From the NCBI RefSeq assembly GCF_003254295.1, contig NZ_QKZO01000008.1:124001-188000 (forward strand): DNA of 64,000 nucleotides, written 5' to 3'. This document shows, one piece after another, positions 50,658-59,857 of the stretch (its first letter is position 1; each line of letters opens with the position of its first letter). Source of the stretch: Rhodobacter capsulatus. GTDB taxonomy: Bacteria > Pseudomonadota > Alphaproteobacteria > Rhodobacterales > Rhodobacteraceae. Made by a program: the position numbers and the translations under genes. A model generated the notes under the pieces. The model did no database searches, was not told the origin of the DNA, and saw nothing but the letters and a program-made list of their open reading frames with translations.

Positions 50658-51089
50658 CTATCGGGCCACTTTCTTGCGCACATAAAGCTCAAGCCGGTGA
50701 TGGACGATCTCATAGCCCAGGGCTTCGGCGATCTCGGCCTGAAGCGCCTCGATCCTCTCGTTGGCGAATTCGACCACCTCGCCGGTCTCGACATCGATGA
50801 TGTGATCGTGGTGGCGGGTCTCGGAATGCTCGAACCGCGCCGGTGTGCCTTCGAACTGATGACGCAGGATGACGCCCTGATTCTCCAGCTCTGTCAGGGT
50901 GCGATAGACGGTGGAGAGCGAAATTCCCGGCACCGCGGCCTCGGCGCGGCGATGCAACTCGACCGCTTCGGGGTGATCGTCGGCCGCCGCCAGAACCGAC
51001 AGGAGCGCGGCACGCTGGCGGGTGATGCGCACACCTGCACGGCGCAGCGCGTTCGTAAGTTTCTCGGCTCGGTGTTCTGTCTTTGTCAT
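50658..51089 (-). CDS. mur: Fur-family metal regulator (Mur/Fur type)
   Basis: 143 residues from ATG at 51089. The winged helix RITRQRAALLSVLAAADDHPEAVEL and STVYRTLTELENQGVILRH are typical. The C-terminal metal site is RHHDHIID. The zinc CxxC motifs of many Fur proteins are absent, as in Mn-dependent Mur of alphaproteobacteria. It is divergent from sitABCD with TGCAA-type operators between, so it is likely the repressor of the Mn importer and of itself. A longer start at 51149 would place an operator inside the gene. Confidence 0.85.
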   Translation of the reverse strand: MTKTEHRAEKLTNALRRAGVRITRQRAALLSVLAAADDHPEAVELHRRAEAAVPGISLSTVYRTLTELENQGVILRHQFEGTPARFEHSETRHHDHIIDVETGEVVEFANERIEALQAEIAEALGYEIVHHRLELYVRKKVAR

Positions 51090-51133
51090 CGTCTGCGTTT
51101 TGCACGAACACGCGCCTGTCGGCAAGCTCTTGT

Positions 51134-51148
51134 TGCAAGTGATTTGCA
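51134..51148. promoter_or_regulatory. Candidate Mur/Fur operator 1
   Basis: TGCAAGTGATTTGCA, a TGCAA-N5-TTGCA palindrome, 45 bp upstream of the regulator start. Confidence 0.7.
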
Positions 51149-51162
51149 TTTGCGACTACAGA

Positions 51163-51177
51163 TGCAAATGATTCTCA
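51163..51177. promoter_or_regulatory. Candidate Mur/Fur operator 2
   Basis: TGCAAATGATTCTCA, about 36 bp before sitA ATG. It is 29 bp (about three helical turns) from operator 1, in the same orientation. Confidence 0.7.
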
Positions 51178-51213
51178 GATAGACTTGCGGCAAACATGCA
51201 GGGGAGCACGCAA

Positions 51214-52101
51214 ATGATCGGCAGAAGATTTCTACTGGGCATGGCAACGGCGCTGGTGCTGGCCGGGCCCGCGGGCGCAAAGGACAAGCTCAAGGTGGTC
51301 ACCACGTTCACGGTGATCGCGGACATGGCGCAGAACGTGGCGGGCGATGCGGCCGAGGTGGTCTCGATCACCAAGCCCGGTGCCGAGATCCACGGCTATC
51401 AACCCACGCCGAGGGACCTGGTGAACGCGCAGGATGCCGATCTGATCCTCTGGAACGGGCTCAACCTGGAACGATGGTTCGAGCAGTTCCTCGCCAATCT
51501 GCGGGACGTGCCGGCCGCGACGATCTCTGACGGAATCGAACCGATCTCGATCGCGGGGGGCGATTATGACGGCAAGCCCAACCCCCATGCCTGGATGGCG
51601 CTTTCATCGGCGGAACTCTATATCGACAATATCCGCGCCGCGCTGAGCGCAGCCGATCCCGGAAATGCCGGGACCTATGCCGCCAATGCCGCGGCCTACA
51701 AGGCGCAGATTGCCGCCGTGATCGGTCCGCTGCGCGCGGCGGCGCGGGCGCTGCCCGAAGATCGTCGCTGGCTGGTGACCTCGGAAGGGGCGTTCTCCTA
51801 TCTTGCGCGGGATTTCGGTCTGACGGAGGTCTATCTCTGGCCGATCAATGCCGACGCGCAAGGCACGCCGCAGCAGGTGCGGGCCGTGATCGACACGGTG
51901 CGCGCCCACCGCATTCCGGTGGTCTTTTCCGAAAGCACGGTCTCCGACAAGCCCGCCCGGCAGGTCGCGCGCGAAACCGGCGCGCAATATGGCGGCGTGC
52001 TTTACGTCGACAGCCTCTCCGAGCCCGGCGGGCCGGTGCCGACCTATCTCGACCTGTTGCGCGTGACCTCGGAGACGATCGTGAAAGGCTTGCAGCCATG
52101 A
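51214..52101 (+). CDS. sitA: Manganese/zinc ABC transporter, binding protein SitA
   Basis: 295 residues. The start at 51214 has GGGGAG upstream; an ATG 18 bp before is less good. The signal peptide MIGRRFLLGMATALVLAGP precedes the metal-binding fold. The four ligand positions are seen in GAEIHGYQPTPRDL, KPNPHAWM, FSESTVSDKPA and LYVDSL (His, His, Glu, Asp), the Mn-type (SitA/PsaA) arrangement. It is first in sitABCD. Confidence 0.9.
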   Translation: MIGRRFLLGMATALVLAGPAGAKDKLKVVTTFTVIADMAQNVAGDAAEVVSITKPGAEIHGYQPTPRDLVNAQDADLILWNGLNLERWFEQFLANLRDVPAATISDGIEPISIAGGDYDGKPNPHAWMALSSAELYIDNIRAALSAADPGNAGTYAANAAAYKAQIAAVIGPLRAAARALPEDRRWLVTSEGAFSYLARDFGLTEVYLWPINADAQGTPQQVRAVIDTVRAHRIPVVFSESTVSDKPARQVARETGAQYGGVLYVDSLSEPGGPVPTYLDLLRVTSETIVKGLQP

Positions 52102-52952
52102 TCGAAGACGGCCTCCGCGCGACCGGCGTCACGGTCACCTATCGCAACGGCCATACCGCGCTGCGCGATGCCAGCTTCGCGATCCCGCGCGGCACGATCA
52201 CCGCGCTTGTTGGCGTGAATGGAGCCGGAAAATCAACCCTTTTCAAGGCGTTGATGGGCTTTGTTCCGGTTGCGGCCGGGCGGATCGAAATTCTTGGCCG
52301 CCCGGTGCGCGAGGTGATGAAGACGCAATCGGTGGCCTATGTGCCGCAAGCCGAAGAGGTCGACTGGAGCTTTCCGGTGCTGGTCGAGGATGTGGTGATG
52401 ATGGGCCGCTACGGCCACATGGGGTTTTTCCGTCGCCCCCGCCCCGCCGATCACGCGGCGGTCGCCGCCGCCCTGTCCCGCGTCGACATGACCGAATTCC
52501 GCAACCGCCAGATCGGCGAATTGTCGGGCGGCCAGAGAAAGCGCGTCTTCCTCGCCCGCGCATTGGCGCAGGACGCACAGGTGATCCTGCTCGACGAGCC
52601 CTTCGCCGGCGTCGATGTCGGGACCGAGGAGCAGATCATCGCGCTTCTGTGCGAGCTGCGCGCCGAGGGCCGGGTCATGCTGGTGGCCACCCACAACCTT
52701 GGCTCGGTGCCCGAATTCTGCGACCGGGTCGTTCTGGTGAAGGGGACGGTGCTGGCCTTCGGGCCGACGGCAGAGGTCTTCACGGCGGAAAAACTGCGCG
52801 CGGCTTTCGGGGGCGTGCTGCGCCATTTCATGCTGGACGGAGCGCATCTGCATGACGACAGCGATCCGCGCAAGCTGGAGGTCTTTTCGGACGATGAGCG
52901 CCCGCTGGTGATCTATGATGATCGCACCCGCACCGTGAAGGAGCGGTCATGA
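52098..52952 (+). CDS. sitB: Manganese ABC transporter ATPase SitB
   Basis: 284 residues. Walker A GVNGAGKSTLFKAL, signature LSGGQRKRVFLARALA and Walker B VILLDEPFAGVD are intact. ATGA overlap with sitA and sitC. The C-terminal tail of about 35 residues (LHDDSDPRKLEVFSDDERP) is as in SitB of related bacteria. Confidence 0.9.
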   Translation: MIEDGLRATGVTVTYRNGHTALRDASFAIPRGTITALVGVNGAGKSTLFKALMGFVPVAAGRIEILGRPVREVMKTQSVAYVPQAEEVDWSFPVLVEDVVMMGRYGHMGFFRRPRPADHAAVAAALSRVDMTEFRNRQIGELSGGQRKRVFLARALAQDAQVILLDEPFAGVDVGTEEQIIALLCELRAEGRVMLVATHNLGSVPEFCDRVVLVKGTVLAFGPTAEVFTAEKLRAAFGGVLRHFMLDGAHLHDDSDPRKLEVFSDDERPLVIYDDRTRTVKERS

Positions 52953-53803
52953 TCTGGCTCGAACCTTTTCAATACGGCTACATGACCAATGCGATCTGGG
53001 TCTCTGCCCTTGTCGGGGCGGTCTGCGCCTTCCTGTCGGCCTATCTGATGCTGAAGGGCTGGTCGCTGATCGGCGATGCGCTCTCGCATTCGGTCGTGCC
53101 CGGTGTCGCGGGGGCCTACATGCTGGGCCTGCCCTTCGCCCTCGGCGCGTTTCTCTCGGGGGGGCTTGCGGCGCTGGCGATGCTGTTCCTGCGCCAGCGT
53201 TCGGGGTTGAAGGAGGACGTGGTGATCGGGCTGATCTTCACCTCGTTCTTCGGGCTGGGGCTGTTCATGGTGTCGCTGAACCCGATGGCGGTCTCGATCC
53301 AGACCATCACCATGGGCAATATCCTTGCGATCTCGCCCGGGGATACGGTGCAGCTGCTGATCATCGGCGGCGTGTCGCTGGCGGTGCTGACGGTGAAATG
53401 GCGCGACCTGATGGCCATATTCTTCGACGAGGCCCATGCCCGGACGATCGGGCTGAACGTGGGGGCGCTGCAAGTGTTGTTTTTCACGCTGCTTTCGGCC
53501 TCGACGGTGGCGGCGATGCAGACCGTGGGGGCATTTCTGGTGATCGCGCTGGTGGTGACGCCGGGGGCGACGGCCTATCTGCTCACCGATCGTTTCCCGC
53601 GGCTCCTGGCGCTGTCGGTGATGATCGGCGCGCTGAGCTCCGCGGCGGGCGCTTATCTGAGCTATTTTCTCGACGGGGCGACGGGCGGCGTGATCGTCTG
53701 CCTGCAGACCGCTCTTTTTCTGGCGGCGCTCGTCCTTGCGCCCAAGCATGGGATGCTTGCCGCGCGCGCCCGCTCCCGTCAGGCCCTGAAGGAGAGCCCG
53801 TGA
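52949..53803 (+). CDS. sitC: Manganese ABC transporter permease SitC
   Basis: 284 residues with about eight helices; ABC-3 family (LKGWSLIGDALSHSVVPGVA, VALVVTPGATAYLLT). Overlaps sitB by ATGA and sitD by TGATG. Confidence 0.9.
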   Translation: MIWLEPFQYGYMTNAIWVSALVGAVCAFLSAYLMLKGWSLIGDALSHSVVPGVAGAYMLGLPFALGAFLSGGLAALAMLFLRQRSGLKEDVVIGLIFTSFFGLGLFMVSLNPMAVSIQTITMGNILAISPGDTVQLLIIGGVSLAVLTVKWRDLMAIFFDEAHARTIGLNVGALQVLFFTLLSASTVAAMQTVGAFLVIALVVTPGATAYLLTDRFPRLLALSVMIGALSSAAGAYLSYFLDGATGGVIVCLQTALFLAALVLAPKHGMLAARARSRQALKESP

Positions 53804-54633
53804 TGCAGGATCTTCTCTTGCCCTTCCAGTTTCCCTTCATGCAGAACGCATTCCTGATCATGGCGCTGATCGCCCCCGCCGCCGCGATGCTGAGCACGTT
53901 TCTCGTGCTCAAGGGCTGGTCGCTGATGGGCGATGCCACAAGTCACGCGGTTCTGCCGGGCGTCGTTCTCGCCTATCTTGCCGGTATCCCGCTGATCGTC
54001 GGCGCGTTTCTTGCCGGGCTGCTCTGCGCGGTCGCAACCGGAGTCATCAAGGACAATTCGCGGATCAAGCAGGATACGGTGATGGGCATCGTGTTCTCCG
54101 GCATGTTCGGTCTGGGCGTCGTGATCTACACCCAGATCGACAGCGCGCTGCATCTTGATCACATCCTGTTTGGCAACATGCTGGGCGTGGGCGCGCAGGA
54201 TCTTTGGACCGCCGGGCTGATCGCGGCGGGCGTCGTGCTGGTTTTCAGCGTGAAATGGCGCGATTTCCTCGTTTACAGCTTCGATCCGGCCCAGGCGCGG
54301 ATGATCGGGCTGCGCACGGGGTGGCTGCATTACGGGCTGCTGGCGATCTTGTCGGCAACCATCGTCGCGATGCTGTCGTCGGTGGGGATCATCTTGTCGG
54401 TGGCCTATCTGATCGCCCCGGGCGCAATCGCCTTTCTGCTGACGCGGCGCTTCGCGGCGATGTTGGTGACCTCTGTCGCCGTTGCGCTGATCGCCGGGAT
54501 CGTCGGGATCTACGTGGCCTTCCGGCTCGATGCAGGTCCCGCGCCAACCATCGTTCTGGTCCTGACGGGCATGTTCCTTGCGGCGCTCGTGCTCCGAGGG
54601 CGGCGCGAACGTCGGGTCCGACGATCGGCTTGA
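53803..54633 (+). CDS. sitD: Manganese ABC transporter permease SitD
   Basis: 276 residues with about eight helices; ABC-3 family, paralogue of SitC (LKGWSLMGDATSHAVLPGVV, IILSVAYLIAPGAIAFLL). It ends the operon with a basic tail (RGRRERRVRRSA). No clear terminator follows. Confidence 0.9.
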   Translation: MQDLLLPFQFPFMQNAFLIMALIAPAAAMLSTFLVLKGWSLMGDATSHAVLPGVVLAYLAGIPLIVGAFLAGLLCAVATGVIKDNSRIKQDTVMGIVFSGMFGLGVVIYTQIDSALHLDHILFGNMLGVGAQDLWTAGLIAAGVVLVFSVKWRDFLVYSFDPAQARMIGLRTGWLHYGLLAILSATIVAMLSSVGIILSVAYLIAPGAIAFLLTRRFAAMLVTSVAVALIAGIVGIYVAFRLDAGPAPTIVLVLTGMFLAALVLRGRRERRVRRSA

Positions 54634-54794: not shown

Positions 54795-55436
54795 TTACCA
54801 GCGCAAGAGCCGTCGTCCGGCCACAGCGCCGAGGGCTGCGCAAAGCGCGATGCCGCCGCCATACCAGGTCACATAGAACATCGGCGAATCCTCGGGGCAA
54901 TGCAGCGAATAGCCTGCCACGGCAAAGGCCCCGACGGAGAGCCCCGCCAAGGCGCCGGTCAGCCGCGGTCGGGTCGAGGCGCCCGGGCGCAGCGCCGCAA
55001 GCCCAAGGCCAAGCGGCAAAAGCGAAAGCGATGTGATCGAGAGCAGGCAGGCGCCCGCCGTCTGTCCCAAAAGCTCGGTCTGCAGCCGATCCGGCGCCGT
55101 TGTCAGCGCCCGCGCAACAAAAAGCCCAAGCGCGAGGGCAAGCGGTGCGGCCAGCGGCCAAAGCGGAATGCGCGCAGCAGGTCGCGTGCTGGCGAACGTG
55201 GCCGAAAGCGCCAGCAGACCCAGCAGGAGCGGCACAAGCGTCTTGGCCGCGACGACGGGGGTCGAGAGCGTGTCCAGCAGTCCCTCCCGCAGGCCGAGGG
55301 TGGCATAAAGCACGGCCAATCCCGCCGCCAATCCGGCCAGCGCAAGGCCGATCACGCGGGCCGGGCGCAGCGGCGCGGGGGCGGGCGCGGCGGCCAGCCG
55401 GTCGATGAAGGCATTCGTCTGATCGGGCGTGGTCAT
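54795..55436 (-). CDS. nrsF: NrsF-type anti-sigma factor (DUF1109)
   Basis: 213 residues with six predicted helices and a short N-terminal cytosolic part (residues 1-25). Cysteines at positions 130 (TAGACLLSI) and 180 (YSLHCPED) fall almost exactly where NrsF of Caulobacter has its two metal-sensing cysteines (131 and 181, from memory). The family holds an ECF sigma factor at the membrane and releases it on metal stress. It starts 4 bp after the sigma gene. Identity as DUF1109 rests on this pattern and the neighbour. Confidence 0.85.
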   Translation of the reverse strand: MTTPDQTNAFIDRLAAAPAPAPLRPARVIGLALAGLAAGLAVLYATLGLREGLLDTLSTPVVAAKTLVPLLLGLLALSATFASTRPAARIPLWPLAAPLALALGLFVARALTTAPDRLQTELLGQTAGACLLSITSLSLLPLGLGLAALRPGASTRPRLTGALAGLSVGAFAVAGYSLHCPEDSPMFYVTWYGGGIALCAALGAVAGRRLLRW

Positions 55437-55440
55437 GGTC

Positions 55441-55986
55441 TCATCCTTTCACGATCTGGCGCAGGCGGGAAAGCGCGCGGTGCAGCGCCACCCGCGAGGC
55501 CCCCGCCGAAAGGCCAAGCGGCGCCCCGGCCGCCTCGGCACTTTCGCCCTCCAGCGTCACGGCCCGCACCAGCGCGGCCGAGCGCGCGTCGATCCGCGCC
55601 AGAAGCCGCTCCGCATCGCGCCCCGACAGCGGCGGCACGTGATGCGGGTCTTCGAGCGTCTCGACAAAGGGCTCGATCGGCACATGGATCGCGGTGCCGC
55701 GCCGCCTGCAGGCGTCGATCAGCTTGTAGCGCGCGATGGCATGAACCCAGGGCCGCACCGGGGCCTCGGGGCGCCAGCTGTGGCGCTTGAGGTGAAGCGC
55801 CAAGAGCACCTCTTGCAGCACGTCCTCGTGCTGATCGGGCGGCAGCGCACCGCCCCGGGCGCGCAGGATGGTGCGGATGGCCGGGCTGACCGCGCGCAGG
55901 AACTGCGCCAGCGCCGCCCGCGCATCTGCGCCGTCATCCGCATTGGCGCGACGCAGCAGATCGGCCCAGTCGTCGTGATCCGCCAT
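55441..55986 (-). CDS. sigF: ECF sigma factor, SigF type
   Basis: 181 residues. Region 2 has EDVLQEVLLALHLKRHSW and RPWVHAIARYKLIDACRRRG; region 4 ends LGLSAGASRVALHRALSRLR. The start at 55986 has GGAGGGAGAG upstream. With the DUF1109 protein next to it this fits the ECF16/SigF group. It follows the buf operon on the same strand after a 100-bp gap and probably drives the promoter before bufA. No such promoter is seen before its own start. Confidence 0.87.
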   Translation of the reverse strand: MADHDDWADLLRRANADDGADARAALAQFLRAVSPAIRTILRARGGALPPDQHEDVLQEVLLALHLKRHSWRPEAPVRPWVHAIARYKLIDACRRRGTAIHVPIEPFVETLEDPHHVPPLSGRDAERLLARIDARSAALVRAVTLEGESAEAAGAPLGLSAGASRVALHRALSRLRQIVKG

Positions 55987-56086
55987 CTCTCCCTCCGACC
56001 GCGCCGGGCGCGCTGCGCCAAGCCTATCCGATCTCGGGGACGCGGGGCAACGCAGCGCTTGGGCCGGGGGCAGCGCCAGGTCCATC

Positions 56087-56521
56087 TCAGCGCCCCCCGG
56101 GCTCAAACCCCAGCGCCCGGTCCAGAGAAAGCCGCCCGGGGCCAAGCACGACCAGCGCCAGCAGCGCCGAGGCCCAGAGCCCATGGGTAATCCAGGCCTC
56201 GGGATAAACGAAGATTTCGATCACCGCGGTCATGCCGATCAGGCCAAGCGCCGCAACCCGGGTGAAGAGCCCCAGGATCATCAGCGCGGGCAGAAGATGC
56301 TCGGCACTGGTGGCGAGAGGCGCGGCGATCTCGGGCGGGATCAGCGGCAGGGCGTAGTCGTGCTCGAACAGGTAATAAGTCGAAGGCTTGATCGTGACGC
56401 CCTCCACCTTGGTGCGGCCCGATTGCAAGAAGACGAAGGCGGGAAAGAGCCGCAAGGCGATGCGCACAAGATCAAGCGGCACCCGGGCCAAAGCCGCGTT
56501 CAGTCGGATCAGTGCCCTCAC
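56087..56521 (-). CDS. DoxX-family membrane protein of the buf operon
   Basis: 144 residues with four helices ([19 protein letters not shown] and [20 protein letters not shown] are DoxX features). The GTG start at 56521 overlaps the bufC stop by GTGA; a TTG 18 bp upstream is an alternative. In described bufferin operons a DoxX gene is the fourth member (often named bufD). Its role is unknown, perhaps redox support at the membrane. Confidence 0.85.
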
Positions 56522-57258
56522 GGCCCGGCTCTTTCGCAAAGCGCGCCCGCCTGCATCAGCGCGACCAGAAGCGCGGTGGGGTCAAGTTCGGGCGCATGGG
56601 CTGCGGCCTGCAGCAAGGTCTCGCCGCGCCCAAGCGCTGCAATCAGCGCGGCCTCGGCCGGGGCGATCGCACGAACCGGCACGTCAAAGGCGCGGTCGCG
56701 CAGGATCAGCGCGGTTTCCGGGCCGGAATGGACCGGCCCGGCCTCGGCGCCCGGCTGGTTGATGGCCCAGATCGCGACGGCGGGGGAGGCAAGGGGCAGG
56801 AGGATCACCGACGGGTGCAAGGCCAGACGCAGCCTTGCCGGATCGGCCCCGGTCAGCCGCGCGGGGGCAATCGGCGCGGCATCGGCGGCATGAAAGGCCA
56901 GTCCCCGCGCCCATTCGATCCGCGCCACATCGCCCATATAGGAAAAGGCCGCGAGCGGCGCGCAGGCGTCGAGACTGTCCGGGAAAGCCGCCCCCCATTC
57001 GTGCAGCACCGGGCTTTGCGGCGGATGCGCCGCGATGAAGTCCCGCGCCAGCGCGGCGAAGAACTCTGCGCCCACAAGGCGGGCGATGACCGGGAAGCGT
57101 GTCCTGAGCGCCGCGCAGAGGCTGAAGCTGACATTGTTGCGATAGACCGCAAAGCGGCGCGCGACTTCGGCGGGATCGGATGCGGTGACCTCTGGCGGGG
57201 CCGCGCCGTGCCGCAGCGCTGCGCCGAACCGCGCAAGGGTTGCGTCATGCGGGCTCAT
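56518..57258 (-). CDS. bufC: BufC/HvfC-type partner protein (DUF2063)
   Basis: 246 residues. The N-terminal DUF2063 domain has [20 protein letters not shown] and [18 protein letters not shown]; a second domain follows (about 145-246). In bufferin and related RiPP systems this protein brings the precursor to the MNIO enzyme. It overlaps bufB by 14 bp and the DoxX gene by 4 bp. Confidence 0.88.
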
Positions 57259-58102
57259 GGCAGACCTCGCGCGCAAGGATCTCGGTGGCACGGTCGGCCT
57301 CGGCGGCAAGAGTTGGCCAGTCGGGCAGGTCATTGTCCCATTCGATCAGCGTGGGCAGCGGCCCGGTGCGGCGGATCGTTTCGGCGTAAAGCGCCCAGAC
57401 CGGATCGGCGACCGGGCTGCCATGCGCATCGATCAAGAGCGGCCCCGAGGGCAGGTGCTCGACCGCGTGCCCGCCCAGATGGATTTCGCCCACGGCGCCA
57501 AGGGGGAAATCGGCCATCATCGCCCGGGGATCACGGCGGTGATTGCTGCAGGAGACGAAGAGGTTGTTGAGATCGAGCAGCAGCCCGCAGCCGGTGCGGG
57601 TGGCGATGATGCGCAGAAATTCGGTCTCGGGGATCGTCGATTGCGCGAACAGCACATAGGTGGCGGGGTTCTCGAGCAGCATCTGCCGCCCGAGTGTTTC
57701 TTGCACCTGATCGACATGGGCGCAGACGGTGGTCAGGGTTTCCTCGGTATAGGGCAGCGGCAGAAGGTCGTTCAGATAGGCGCCGTCATGGCTTGACCAG
57801 GCCAGATGTTCGGAGAAGCTTTCGGGGGCATACCGATCGCAAAGGGTCTTGAGCCGGGCCAGATGATCGCGGTCCAGCGGCGCGGCGCCGCCGATCGACA
57901 GCCCCACCCCATGCACCGAAAGCGCATGATCGGCCCGCAGCGCGGTGAGCTGCGCATGGGGCAGGCCGCCCGCGCCCATGTAGTTCTCGGCATGGATTTC
58001 GAAGAACCCGACGCGGCGGCGGTCGGCACGGATCTGCTCGAAATGCGCGGGCTTGAAGCCAAGACCGGCGGTTCGGGGCAGGCAGGCGGGCAGATGGATC
58101 AT
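57245..58102 (-). CDS. bufB: BufB: MNIO enzyme (DUF692) modifying the bufferin precursor
   Basis: 285 residues with a TIM-barrel and iron ligands in the DUF692/MbnB order: [22 protein letters not shown] (His64), SEHLAW (His99), LLENPATY (Glu144), LLLDLNNLF (Asp177), IHLGGH (His208), DAHGSPV and EWDNDLP (Glu254). MNIO enzymes use two or three iron ions to turn cysteines into thiooxazole or related rings. GAGGAGG stands before ATG at 58102. The precursor gene is 53 bp upstream. This is the catalytic core of the operon. Confidence 0.92.
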
Positions 58103-58123
58103 GGAAAACCTCCTCGGGCAAGG

Positions 58124-58146
58124 GAGGCGCGGAATGCCCGCGCCTC
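58124..58146 (-). promoter_or_regulatory. Perfect 9-bp stem-loop between bufA and bufB
   Basis: GAGGCGCGG-GCATT-CCGCGCCTC lies in the 53-bp gap and is followed on the minus strand by no T-run. It could protect the bufA message or partly stop transcription so that precursor outnumbers enzyme. Confidence 0.6.
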
Positions 58147-58155
58147 GACGCAGGG

Positions 58156-58473
58156 TTACGAGGCGATGTCGCGATCAAGGGCCATCAAGGCGCCGTGCCG
58201 GGCCATGCCATCGGCACCGGCGGGCAGTTCCATCGTCATGCAGGTGCCCGCGGGCACGAGCTTCCACGCATTGCCCTGGTAATCGACTTTCGAAGTGCCG
58301 GCGCAGGTGGTGCCGGGGCCCGCGGCGCAGTCGTTCTGCCCGGCCAGCGCGACGCCGAAGCATTTTTCCATGGTCTCGGCCTGCGCGGGCAGCGCCGCCA
58401 TCGCGCCAAGCGCGCCCGCAAGCGTGGCGGCAAGGGCGAAATGCGAAGCGCGGCGGGGGGGGGATGCGGTCAT
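58156..58473 (-). CDS. bufA: BufA1: bufferin copper-binding peptide precursor (DUF2282)
   Basis: 105 residues. A Sec signal peptide ([20 protein letters not shown], cleavage near 32) precedes a core with four cysteines at 38, 49, 57 and 78 in the bufferin order: [35 protein letters not shown] and PAGTCM. In described bufferins two of these cysteines become thiooxazoles that bind copper. GGGAGA precedes ATG at 58473. It leads the operon and has a SigF-like promoter 50 bp upstream. Confidence 0.92.
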
Positions 58474-58523: not shown

Positions 58524-58550
58524 GTTCGCAGCCGCCGCTGCCTTCGTTAC
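58524..58550 (-). promoter_or_regulatory. Candidate SigF promoter of the buf operon
   Basis: On the minus strand GTAAC (58550-58546), a 17-bp spacer and CGAAC (58528-58524). This matches the SigF-type GTAAC / CGAA pattern recalled for Caulobacter. The predicted start site is near 58517, giving a leader of about 45 nt. Confidence 0.65.
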
Positions 58551-58570
58551 AGTCCTCACGCAGCCGTGAT

Positions 58571-58870: not shown

Positions 58871-59507
58871 TTACTCCGTCAGATCATCCAGACTCACGCC
58901 AAGCGCATCTTCCAGATCGACACCCAGATAGCGAACGGTGCTGTCCATCTTGGGTCGTGGCCCAGGAGCAGCTGCACGGCGCCAGATTTCCGGTCTTCTT
59001 GGTGATCTGCGCAACCTTCGTGCGCTGCATCGAATGCGTGCCATAGACACTGGGCTCGAGCCCGATCGAAAGAACCCAGTCGCGCATGATCCGGGCATAT
59101 TGGCGTGTCGACAGGTGCGGGCTGGCGTGAACGCGGCTGGGCCAGAGATAGTCGCTGCCGACCCTTTCGGGATCCTTGATCCACCGTTCCAGCGCCAGTC
59201 GCGTGGTCTCGGTGATCTTGAAGCGGACGGGTTTTCGGGTCTTGCTCTGGGTCACCGAGGCACGTTCCTTGACGTGACCGGCTGCATAGACGTCGCTCAC
59301 CCTGAGGCCGACCAGATCGCAGCCCCGGAGTTTGCTGTCGACGGTCCTGTTGAACAGGGCAAGGTCACGCCGATTGTCGGCCATTTCCAATCGAACGCGG
59401 ATAGACCAGACATGCTTTGGCTGCAGCGGAAGCTTTTGGCCGATGATGCGGCTCTTGTTCCACGGCGCGCGGACCGGGCGAAGAGCGGGTAGGGGTTCAA
59501 TGGTCAT
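58871..59507 (-). pseudogene. Tyrosine recombinase/integrase, doubly frameshifted
   Basis: From ATG at 59507 the frame reads a short integrase: LRGCDLVGLRVSDVY (the Arg box), SKTRKPVRFKITETTRLAL, YGTHSMQRTKVAQI. It then breaks near 59000; the next frame gives VQLLLGHD, and a third gives MDSTVRYLGVDLEDAL to TAA at 58871. The catalytic Tyr (VRYLGVD) survives only in the last frame. The protein also lacks the N-terminal arm domain of phage integrases. This is a decayed remnant, of a type often found alone in Rhodobacterales genomes. Confidence 0.85.
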
Positions 59508-59857
59508 GACGGAACTCCTCTCCGCCACGCCCACCACGTCCTCGGCTCCGCCGAGCCGCCGGAGAGGTTGCGGCATTGCACCGCGGCAATGGGCGATAGG
59601 GTCCATTTGCGCTTCGCTAAGGAAGCGACGAACTGCGCTGGTTGCGGACATTGCGGGCAACAAGTCGCCTCTGGCGCGACCGACGCCTATTGCCCCTTGC
59701 ATTCGGGCACAGACCAATCTTGCGGATCGGCAGCGTTCACGAAAGCCGCCGCGCGAATGCGCAGCGACAACGCCCCTTTCGAAGTACAAACGGCCAAGAA
59801 CTGTCTCGCCGCAGGTGGTCCCGTGGGTCGTGGCGCGACCGATCCCTGCAACTCCGC
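59508..59857. other. Junction sequence without a recognised gene
   Basis: About 350 bp. On the minus strand the recombinase frame stays open for 94 codons upstream of its ATG (to 59789), but with no start site or family. GC content is slightly lower than in neighbours. I could not assign it. Confidence 0.35.

Follow-up and report, generated by a model that had tools for sequence, protein, structure and literature searches.

A 64,000-nucleotide stretch of the Rhodobacter capsulatus genome (contig NZ_QKZO01000008.1, positions 124,001 to 188,000; below, the window, with positions counted from its first letter) carries a genuine and complete Buf1-type bufferin operon, linked to the genes of the extracytoplasmic function (ECF) sigma factor SigF and its anti-sigma factor NrsF. 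Bufferins, which protect against copper, are a large class of peptides that has been recognised recently, and the tuning of their expression is not well worked out in the literature we compared. The best explanation of the locus, to which we give a probability of roughly 0.7, is that the ECF switch forms the tail of an operon under SigF control; each time such an operon is activated, expression of its regulator probably rises with it. Buf operons next to sigF-nrsF have already been published (PMC3511200, PMC8224329, PMC10304878, PMC12452194; these papers, and PMC12668002 below, are drawn on in part throughout), and the linkage itself is therefore not new. The locus is a promoter-rewired variant of this known module, in which the position and orientation of the regulator are unusual. 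The genes run in the order bufA-bufB-bufC-doxX-sigF-nrsF, all on the minus strand, from window position 58473 to 54795:

58556-58569, minus strand: dyad TCACGGCTGCGTGA (TCAC-N6-GTGA), 5 nucleotides before the -35 element; a second regulator may bind it
58525-58550, minus strand: SigF-type promoter GTAACG-N16-CGAA, directly before bufA
58156-58473, minus strand: bufA, Buf1 (DUF2282) bufferin precursor of 105 amino acids with Cys 38, 49, 57 and 78; Pfam DUF2282 8.4e-26
57245-58102, minus strand: bufB, MNIO (DUF692) maturase of 285 amino acids; Pfam MbnB_TglH_ChrH 8.4e-105
56518-57258, minus strand: bufC, DUF2063 partner protein, overlapping bufB by 14 nucleotides; Pfam DUF2063 7.4e-25
56087-56521, minus strand: doxX, membrane protein with a GTG start in a 4-nucleotide GTGA overlap with bufC; Pfam DoxX 7e-17
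55987-56086, minus strand: doxX-sigF gap of 100 nucleotides, open in frame with sigF
55441-55986, minus strand: sigF, ECF sigma factor of 181 amino acids, 100 nucleotides after doxX; Pfam Sigma70_r2 2.3e-8
54795-55436, minus strand: nrsF (DUF1109), anti-sigma factor of 213 amino acids, 4 nucleotides after sigF; Pfam NrsF 2.8e-46

All six proteins score over the Pfam cut-offs for their families, in agreement with a sequence-only reading of this DNA that had placed bufA, bufB, bufC, a DoxX gene, an ECF sigma gene and a DUF1109 gene on one strand; the interval it assigned to them, 55441-58473, stops before nrsF. BufB also passes the NCBIfam model of the bufferin maturase, MNIO_BufB, with 381.8 bits against a cut-off of 310. 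Its conserved His, Asp and Glu positions, which had been put forward as ligand motifs, are present and align with those of the solved DUF692 protein 3bww: E35, H64, H99, D112, E144 and H208 are invariant in the 143 aligned rows (the window's row included), and D177, D225, H227 and E254 are kept in 142 of them. Particular positions among these presumably serve as metal ligands. The four BufA cysteines claimed earlier are likewise found, C38, C49 and C57 in 140 of 140 aligned rows and C78 in 139, and the N-terminus of BufA holds a segment judged signal-like by eye. In NrsF, C130 is kept in 143 of 143 rows and C180 in 126 (the others have Glu in 9 cases and His in 8); both lie near the positions of C131 and C181 in Caulobacter NrsF. 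The NCBIfam equivalogs for NrsF (AntiSigF_NrsF, 74.5 of 300 bits) and SigF (best model, 166.4 of 198) were not reached, nor were the cut-offs for HvfC (63.2 of 142) and HvfX (54 of 80), and BufA had no NCBIfam match. A family search of the window's genome gave one match each for BufB, NrsF and DUF2282; among 18 genomes of the genus, BufB was present in 9, NrsF over its cut-off in 10 and DUF2282 in 10. The family scores, together with the conservation across the compared relatives, rule out a chance assembly.

The sequence-only reading had remarked that the regulator stands behind the structural genes. That position is borne out and is unusual; the usual layout, which went unrecognised there, is divergent. 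We classified each locus by the position of sigF-nrsF relative to the buf genes. The 41 Rhodobacteraceae loci with both parts (two of them from one genome) comprise 33 divergent, 7 codirectional and 1 convergent. The genus of the window shows both layouts, with 4 codirectional downstream loci, 6 divergent and 1 without buf genes in its set of 11. In the family, a set of 149 genomes gave 22 loci, of which 10 were divergent, 9 lacked buf genes and one each was codirectional, convergent and incomplete; a set of 394 genomes added another 26, of which 17 were divergent, 2 codirectional and 7 lacking buf genes. Among the 80 named loci nearest to BufB, a set from which records very near the window may be left out, 32 were divergent (3 of them apparently from genomes already counted), 48 lacked NrsF and none was codirectional. 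At class level, the best 40 of 90 places (window apart) held 18 divergent loci, 3 codirectional upstream, 18 without buf genes and 1 codirectional downstream, the distant locus L252. At phylum level, 20 places hand-picked from 87 held 5 divergent loci, 13 without buf genes and 2 codirectional upstream, the last two scored by bufB, with bufA itself divergent. With one set of six genes found in two arrangements, sigF either behind a promoter of its own or closing the operon, and this even inside a single genus, the loci amount to a natural experiment on how feedback layout affects the metal response.

The codirectional order is also found on plasmids. Searching plasmids with SigF turned up 16 records, 7 of which we opened: the Rhizobium record is divergent, and all six Paracoccus records are codirectional (P. 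aestuarii p296221, P. liaowanqingii, three of P. marcusii and Paracoccus sp. Arc7-R13, the last four being close to each other). Like the window, the Paracoccus plasmids carry the SigF-type promoter ahead of bufA but not ahead of sigF; unlike the window, their loci are plasmid-borne and have no dyad at the promoter. In Arc7-R13 the sigF region (L325, 5377-5920) is annotated as two pieces. Some codirectional operons hold additional genes. In P. liaowanqingii the interval from doxX to sigF holds an annotated thioredoxin gene, and two related genomes, G291 and G290 (loci L190 and L191), have two genes there, for a DsbD-like membrane protein and a thioredoxin-like protein; the G291 pair matches DsbD_TM and Thioredoxin, and the G290 pair looks alike by eye. 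The presence of such genes suggests thiol redox work in the bufferin pathway. A different variation is seen in rhizobia, where at eight loci (L094-L097, L101, L103, L106 and L107) a single bufB follows a tandem pair of DUF2282 precursor genes.

The promoters differ between the layouts. A matrix built from 41 sigF-side promoters, applied at a threshold of 8 bits of our choosing, found a site before sigF at all 61 non-codirectional loci, 60 of them divergent and one convergent (41 of these regions trained the matrix and 20 did not), and at none of 13 codirectional ones (0 of 7 genome loci and 0 of 6 Paracoccus loci). Before bufA, a site at this threshold was present at 52 of the 61 non-codirectional loci and at every codirectional locus, 7 of 7 in the genomes and 6 of 6 in Paracoccus. 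The best score in the window's sigF region, -4.9, is within the range of shuffled sequences; in the six Paracoccus loci the sigF region scores between -1.4 and -6.8 and the bufA region between 11.9 and 18.1. Since the SigF-type motif is lost before sigF, SigF-dependent autoregulation in the codirectional clade would be expected only via read-through from bufA. Without the separate SigF-type promoter seen in divergent relatives, SigF autoregulation would pass by way of the structural genes, and a single transcript would encode both positive feedback (SigF) and negative feedback (NrsF). The SigF-type promoter before bufA supports the self-regulation implied when the sequence-only reading called the locus a self-contained cassette, although the linkage behind that idea was already in print.

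Elsewhere in the window's genome the pattern GTAACN-N15-17-CGAA is uninformative. It occurs at 13 sites against 47 for the reversed control, and being rarer than its control it gives genome-wide matches little meaning; the site at bufA stands out by its position and conservation. We inspected 7 of the other 12 sites by eye and saw no dyad and no evident bufferin gene. The only predicted SigF target found in this genome is the operon itself, in a survey that did not include a search for msrP, a SigF target in Caulobacter.

A SigF tree built from 97 rows groups the 7 codirectional loci in a single clade (SH-like approximate likelihood-ratio support, SH-aLRT, 98) among divergent Rhodobacteraceae, and the distant locus L252 falls outside it. 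The nesting of this clade among divergent loci makes the divergent layout the likely ancestral state.

By scan, the doxX-sigF gap has no SigF-type promoter, no sigma-70-like promoter and no terminator, and terminator-like sites in the region are at chance level (2 found, 2.5 expected). An ordinary SigF/NrsF-bufferin module, in which the layout is neutral, a housekeeping promoter that escaped recognition, in the gap or upstream of it, drives sigF-nrsF, and feedback works as in Caulobacter or Cupriavidus, seems to us unlikely. Such a module would resemble Cupriavidus metallidurans, whose rpoQ-rsqA genes are RpoD-dependent (PMC10304878), and Caulobacter, in which sigF is weakly autoregulated and has a second, unknown regulator (PMC3511200); in addition, several codirectional loci share an element with TAGG in this gap. 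The scan finds no sigma-70-like promoter there, however, and the recurring element stands, as judged by eye, at inconsistent spacing to any -35-like hexamer. A sigma-70 promoter built on the TAGG element, supported neither by the scan nor by constant spacing, was rejected.

The gap might instead be coding. The 247-amino-acid open reading frame from 56184, taken as sigF in the sequence-only reading, overlaps doxX, and the 181-amino-acid form from 55986 is the likely gene; a start at 56085 is also possible. If the gap were translated, SigF of the codirectional clade would have a translationally coupled N-terminal extension of about 30-40 amino acids that is absent from divergent SigF. This is suggested by a start codon beside the upstream stop, in frame with sigF, at 6 of the 7 codirectional genome loci and in P. 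aestuarii, and by the annotations of P. aestuarii and P. liaowanqingii, which overlap sigF with the upstream gene by 4 nucleotides. Yet the extension shows a mild third-position excess in its codon-position counts (13/10/14 for WIN-L040 and 9/11/17 for WIN-L041) versus a strong one in the SigF body (14/8/48 and 19/14/66), so that any constraint on it at the protein level is weak at most; at L191 the extension is out of frame, and in the window a GGAGGG run precedes the short start. Given the mild excess we keep the coupled extension as an alternative of quite low probability and favour the short SigF.

Upstream of the bufA promoter lies a second conserved element. The dyad, with at most one mismatch, is present in 37 of the 41 Rhodobacteraceae sigF-linked bufA regions (21 exact; mean in shuffled sequences 0.01), ending 4-6 nucleotides before the GTAA of the promoter and exactly 5 in 30 of the 37, while its flanks look dissimilar by eye; the sequences are related, and these counts are not independent. 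The dyad occurs at 1 of 41 sigF regions and at the promoter position of none of 47 bufA regions from operons without sigF. Three operons without a linked sigF, but with a SigF-type site, have it at other offsets, and the Paracoccus locus L323 has a one-mismatch match elsewhere in its upstream region. Its conservation suggests that bufferin expression may have a second regulator, one with a precisely defined DNA target. BufC, considered as an NGO1945-like binder of the dyad, is thought unlikely, as sigF-less buf operons carry BufC yet show the dyad-plus-GTAA arrangement in 0 of 47 cases. In six genomes the exact pattern occurs at 31 sites, 4-6 per genome, and we read 20 of the 26 that are not at bufA. 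Three genomes of the genus (loci L306, L312 and L317) have an exact TCACG-N4-CGTGA near the start of a gene for a potassium transporter (TrkH-like), next to an Lrp-like regulator gene; both identifications were made by eye. A narrow literature search found no report of the dyad, and did not extend to the codirectional layout as such. Taken together, the bufA promoter of Rhodobacteraceae may be a two-input one, answering SigF and an activator or repressor at TCAC-N6-GTGA, with one clade having captured the ECF switch into its own operon as a one-transcript feedback device spread over several genera and plasmids; we hold this combined picture tentatively, at somewhat less than an even chance. 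The layout contrast and the dyad make the regulation directly testable.

Beyond gene content and promoter anatomy, the mechanism we propose is drawn from Caulobacter and Cupriavidus, and in it induction, thiooxazole chemistry, metal binding and the function of the dyad are predictions. Metal stress (copper and, by analogy, chromate or cadmium) would inactivate the membrane anti-sigma factor NrsF via its two conserved cysteines. The freed SigF would start transcription at the one GTAACG-N16-CGAA promoter, upstream of bufA, and the transcript would extend past bufBC-doxX to include sigF-nrsF; a second regulator may act at this promoter via the dyad. BufB with BufC would convert the two central cysteines of BufA (C49 and C57) to thiooxazoles, a chemistry described for the wider class (PMC12668002), while C38 and C78 would form a disulfide; the exported peptide would then bind excess copper in the periplasm.

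The system may not be mainly about copper, but may answer another metal or envelope thiol stress, with a peptide that is unmodified or binds other ions. Caulobacter SigF answers chromate and cadmium (PMC3511200), MerC fusions of bufferins are known (PMC12452194), and two relatives have the DsbD-like and thioredoxin-like genes in the operon. On the other hand, copper induces the SigF regulon of Caulobacter, where a sigF mutant is copper-sensitive (PMC8224329), and the gig genes of Cupriavidus (PMC10304878), and the four BufA cysteines and the conserved BufB positions are kept. We consider a primarily non-copper role improbable.

Several points weigh against our preferred reading of a SigF-controlled operon with the ECF switch at its tail. 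Co-transcription into sigF is presumed, and an unrecognised basal promoter in the gap could drive sigF in the manner of rpoQ-rsqA; the codirectional locus L040 has a weak best match before sigF (5.2 bits, shuffle p 0.075). A sigma-70-like site lies upstream of bufA (58668-58639; 1 found, 0.3 expected in the region), and bufA may also have a basal promoter. Support for a single codirectional group is not uniform. When Paracoccus and NrsF were added to the tree (5 of the 6 Paracoccus loci, L322 being too short), a branch set off the 12 codirectional rows with support 88, short of the starred level, and a quick free BufB tree of 91 rows splits the group, although the BufB tree constrained to hold it together had the higher likelihood (approximately unbiased test, p-AU 0.766). 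The dyad is found in 14 of 27 named and 6 of 24 class- and phylum-level sigF-linked bufA regions, is missing in 4 of the 41 Rhodobacteraceae regions and is absent at the bufA promoter of the six codirectional Paracoccus loci; missing from part of the sigF-linked loci, it is not essential. Apart from bufA, the sites read in the six genomes have a single neighbourhood in common, seen in three of them; they show no consistent targets otherwise, and no factor that might bind the dyad was found. Finally, copper as the specific inducing metal is suggested by analogy.

The surroundings of the operon hold two further features. Just upstream of bufA lies a tyrosine recombinase gene (58887-59738, minus strand; Phage_integrase 1.9e-7), apparently broken as judged by eye, and a relative, 75% identical over 175 amino acids, lies just upstream of bufA in G291 (L190, 10674-11414). 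A recombinase beside bufA in both places hints at a mobile cassette, and the bufferin cassette may formerly have been mobile. On the other side, convergent with nrsF, positions 50658-54633 hold a Fur-family regulator and a ZnuA/ABC-3 type metal uptake operon, the second permease of which was named by eye.

The closest published counterpart is Caulobacter crescentus, where CC3254-CC3257 (bufA-B-C-doxX) and sigF-nrsF (CC3253-CC3252) comprise the same six families, with the same promoter class and the two conserved NrsF cysteines, substitution of which (C131/C181) derepresses the SigF regulon (PMC3511200). The Caulobacter promoter, GTAACC-N16-CGAA, is required upstream of both bufA (CC3254) and sigF for SigF-dependent expression (PMC3511200). 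In Caulobacter, sigF-nrsF stands apart as a unit served by a SigF-type promoter of its own; it is divergent as judged from the gene numbering and weakly autoregulated, whereas here it is an operon tail without the motif; Caulobacter also has a second DUF2282-DUF692-DUF2063 operon, and in the window's genome we found one. Cupriavidus metallidurans gigPABT has the same operon gene order and is copper and gold inducible, but, unlike here, forms a 'divergon' with the RpoD-dependent rpoQ-rsqA (PMC10304878). The MNIO survey of Antoine et al. (2025) places sigma and NrsF genes in Buf1 but not Buf2 clusters and reports four conserved cysteines; in the portions of its text compared, the gene orders of its Fig. 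3d aside, orientation, promoter loss and the dyad are not described (PMC12452194).

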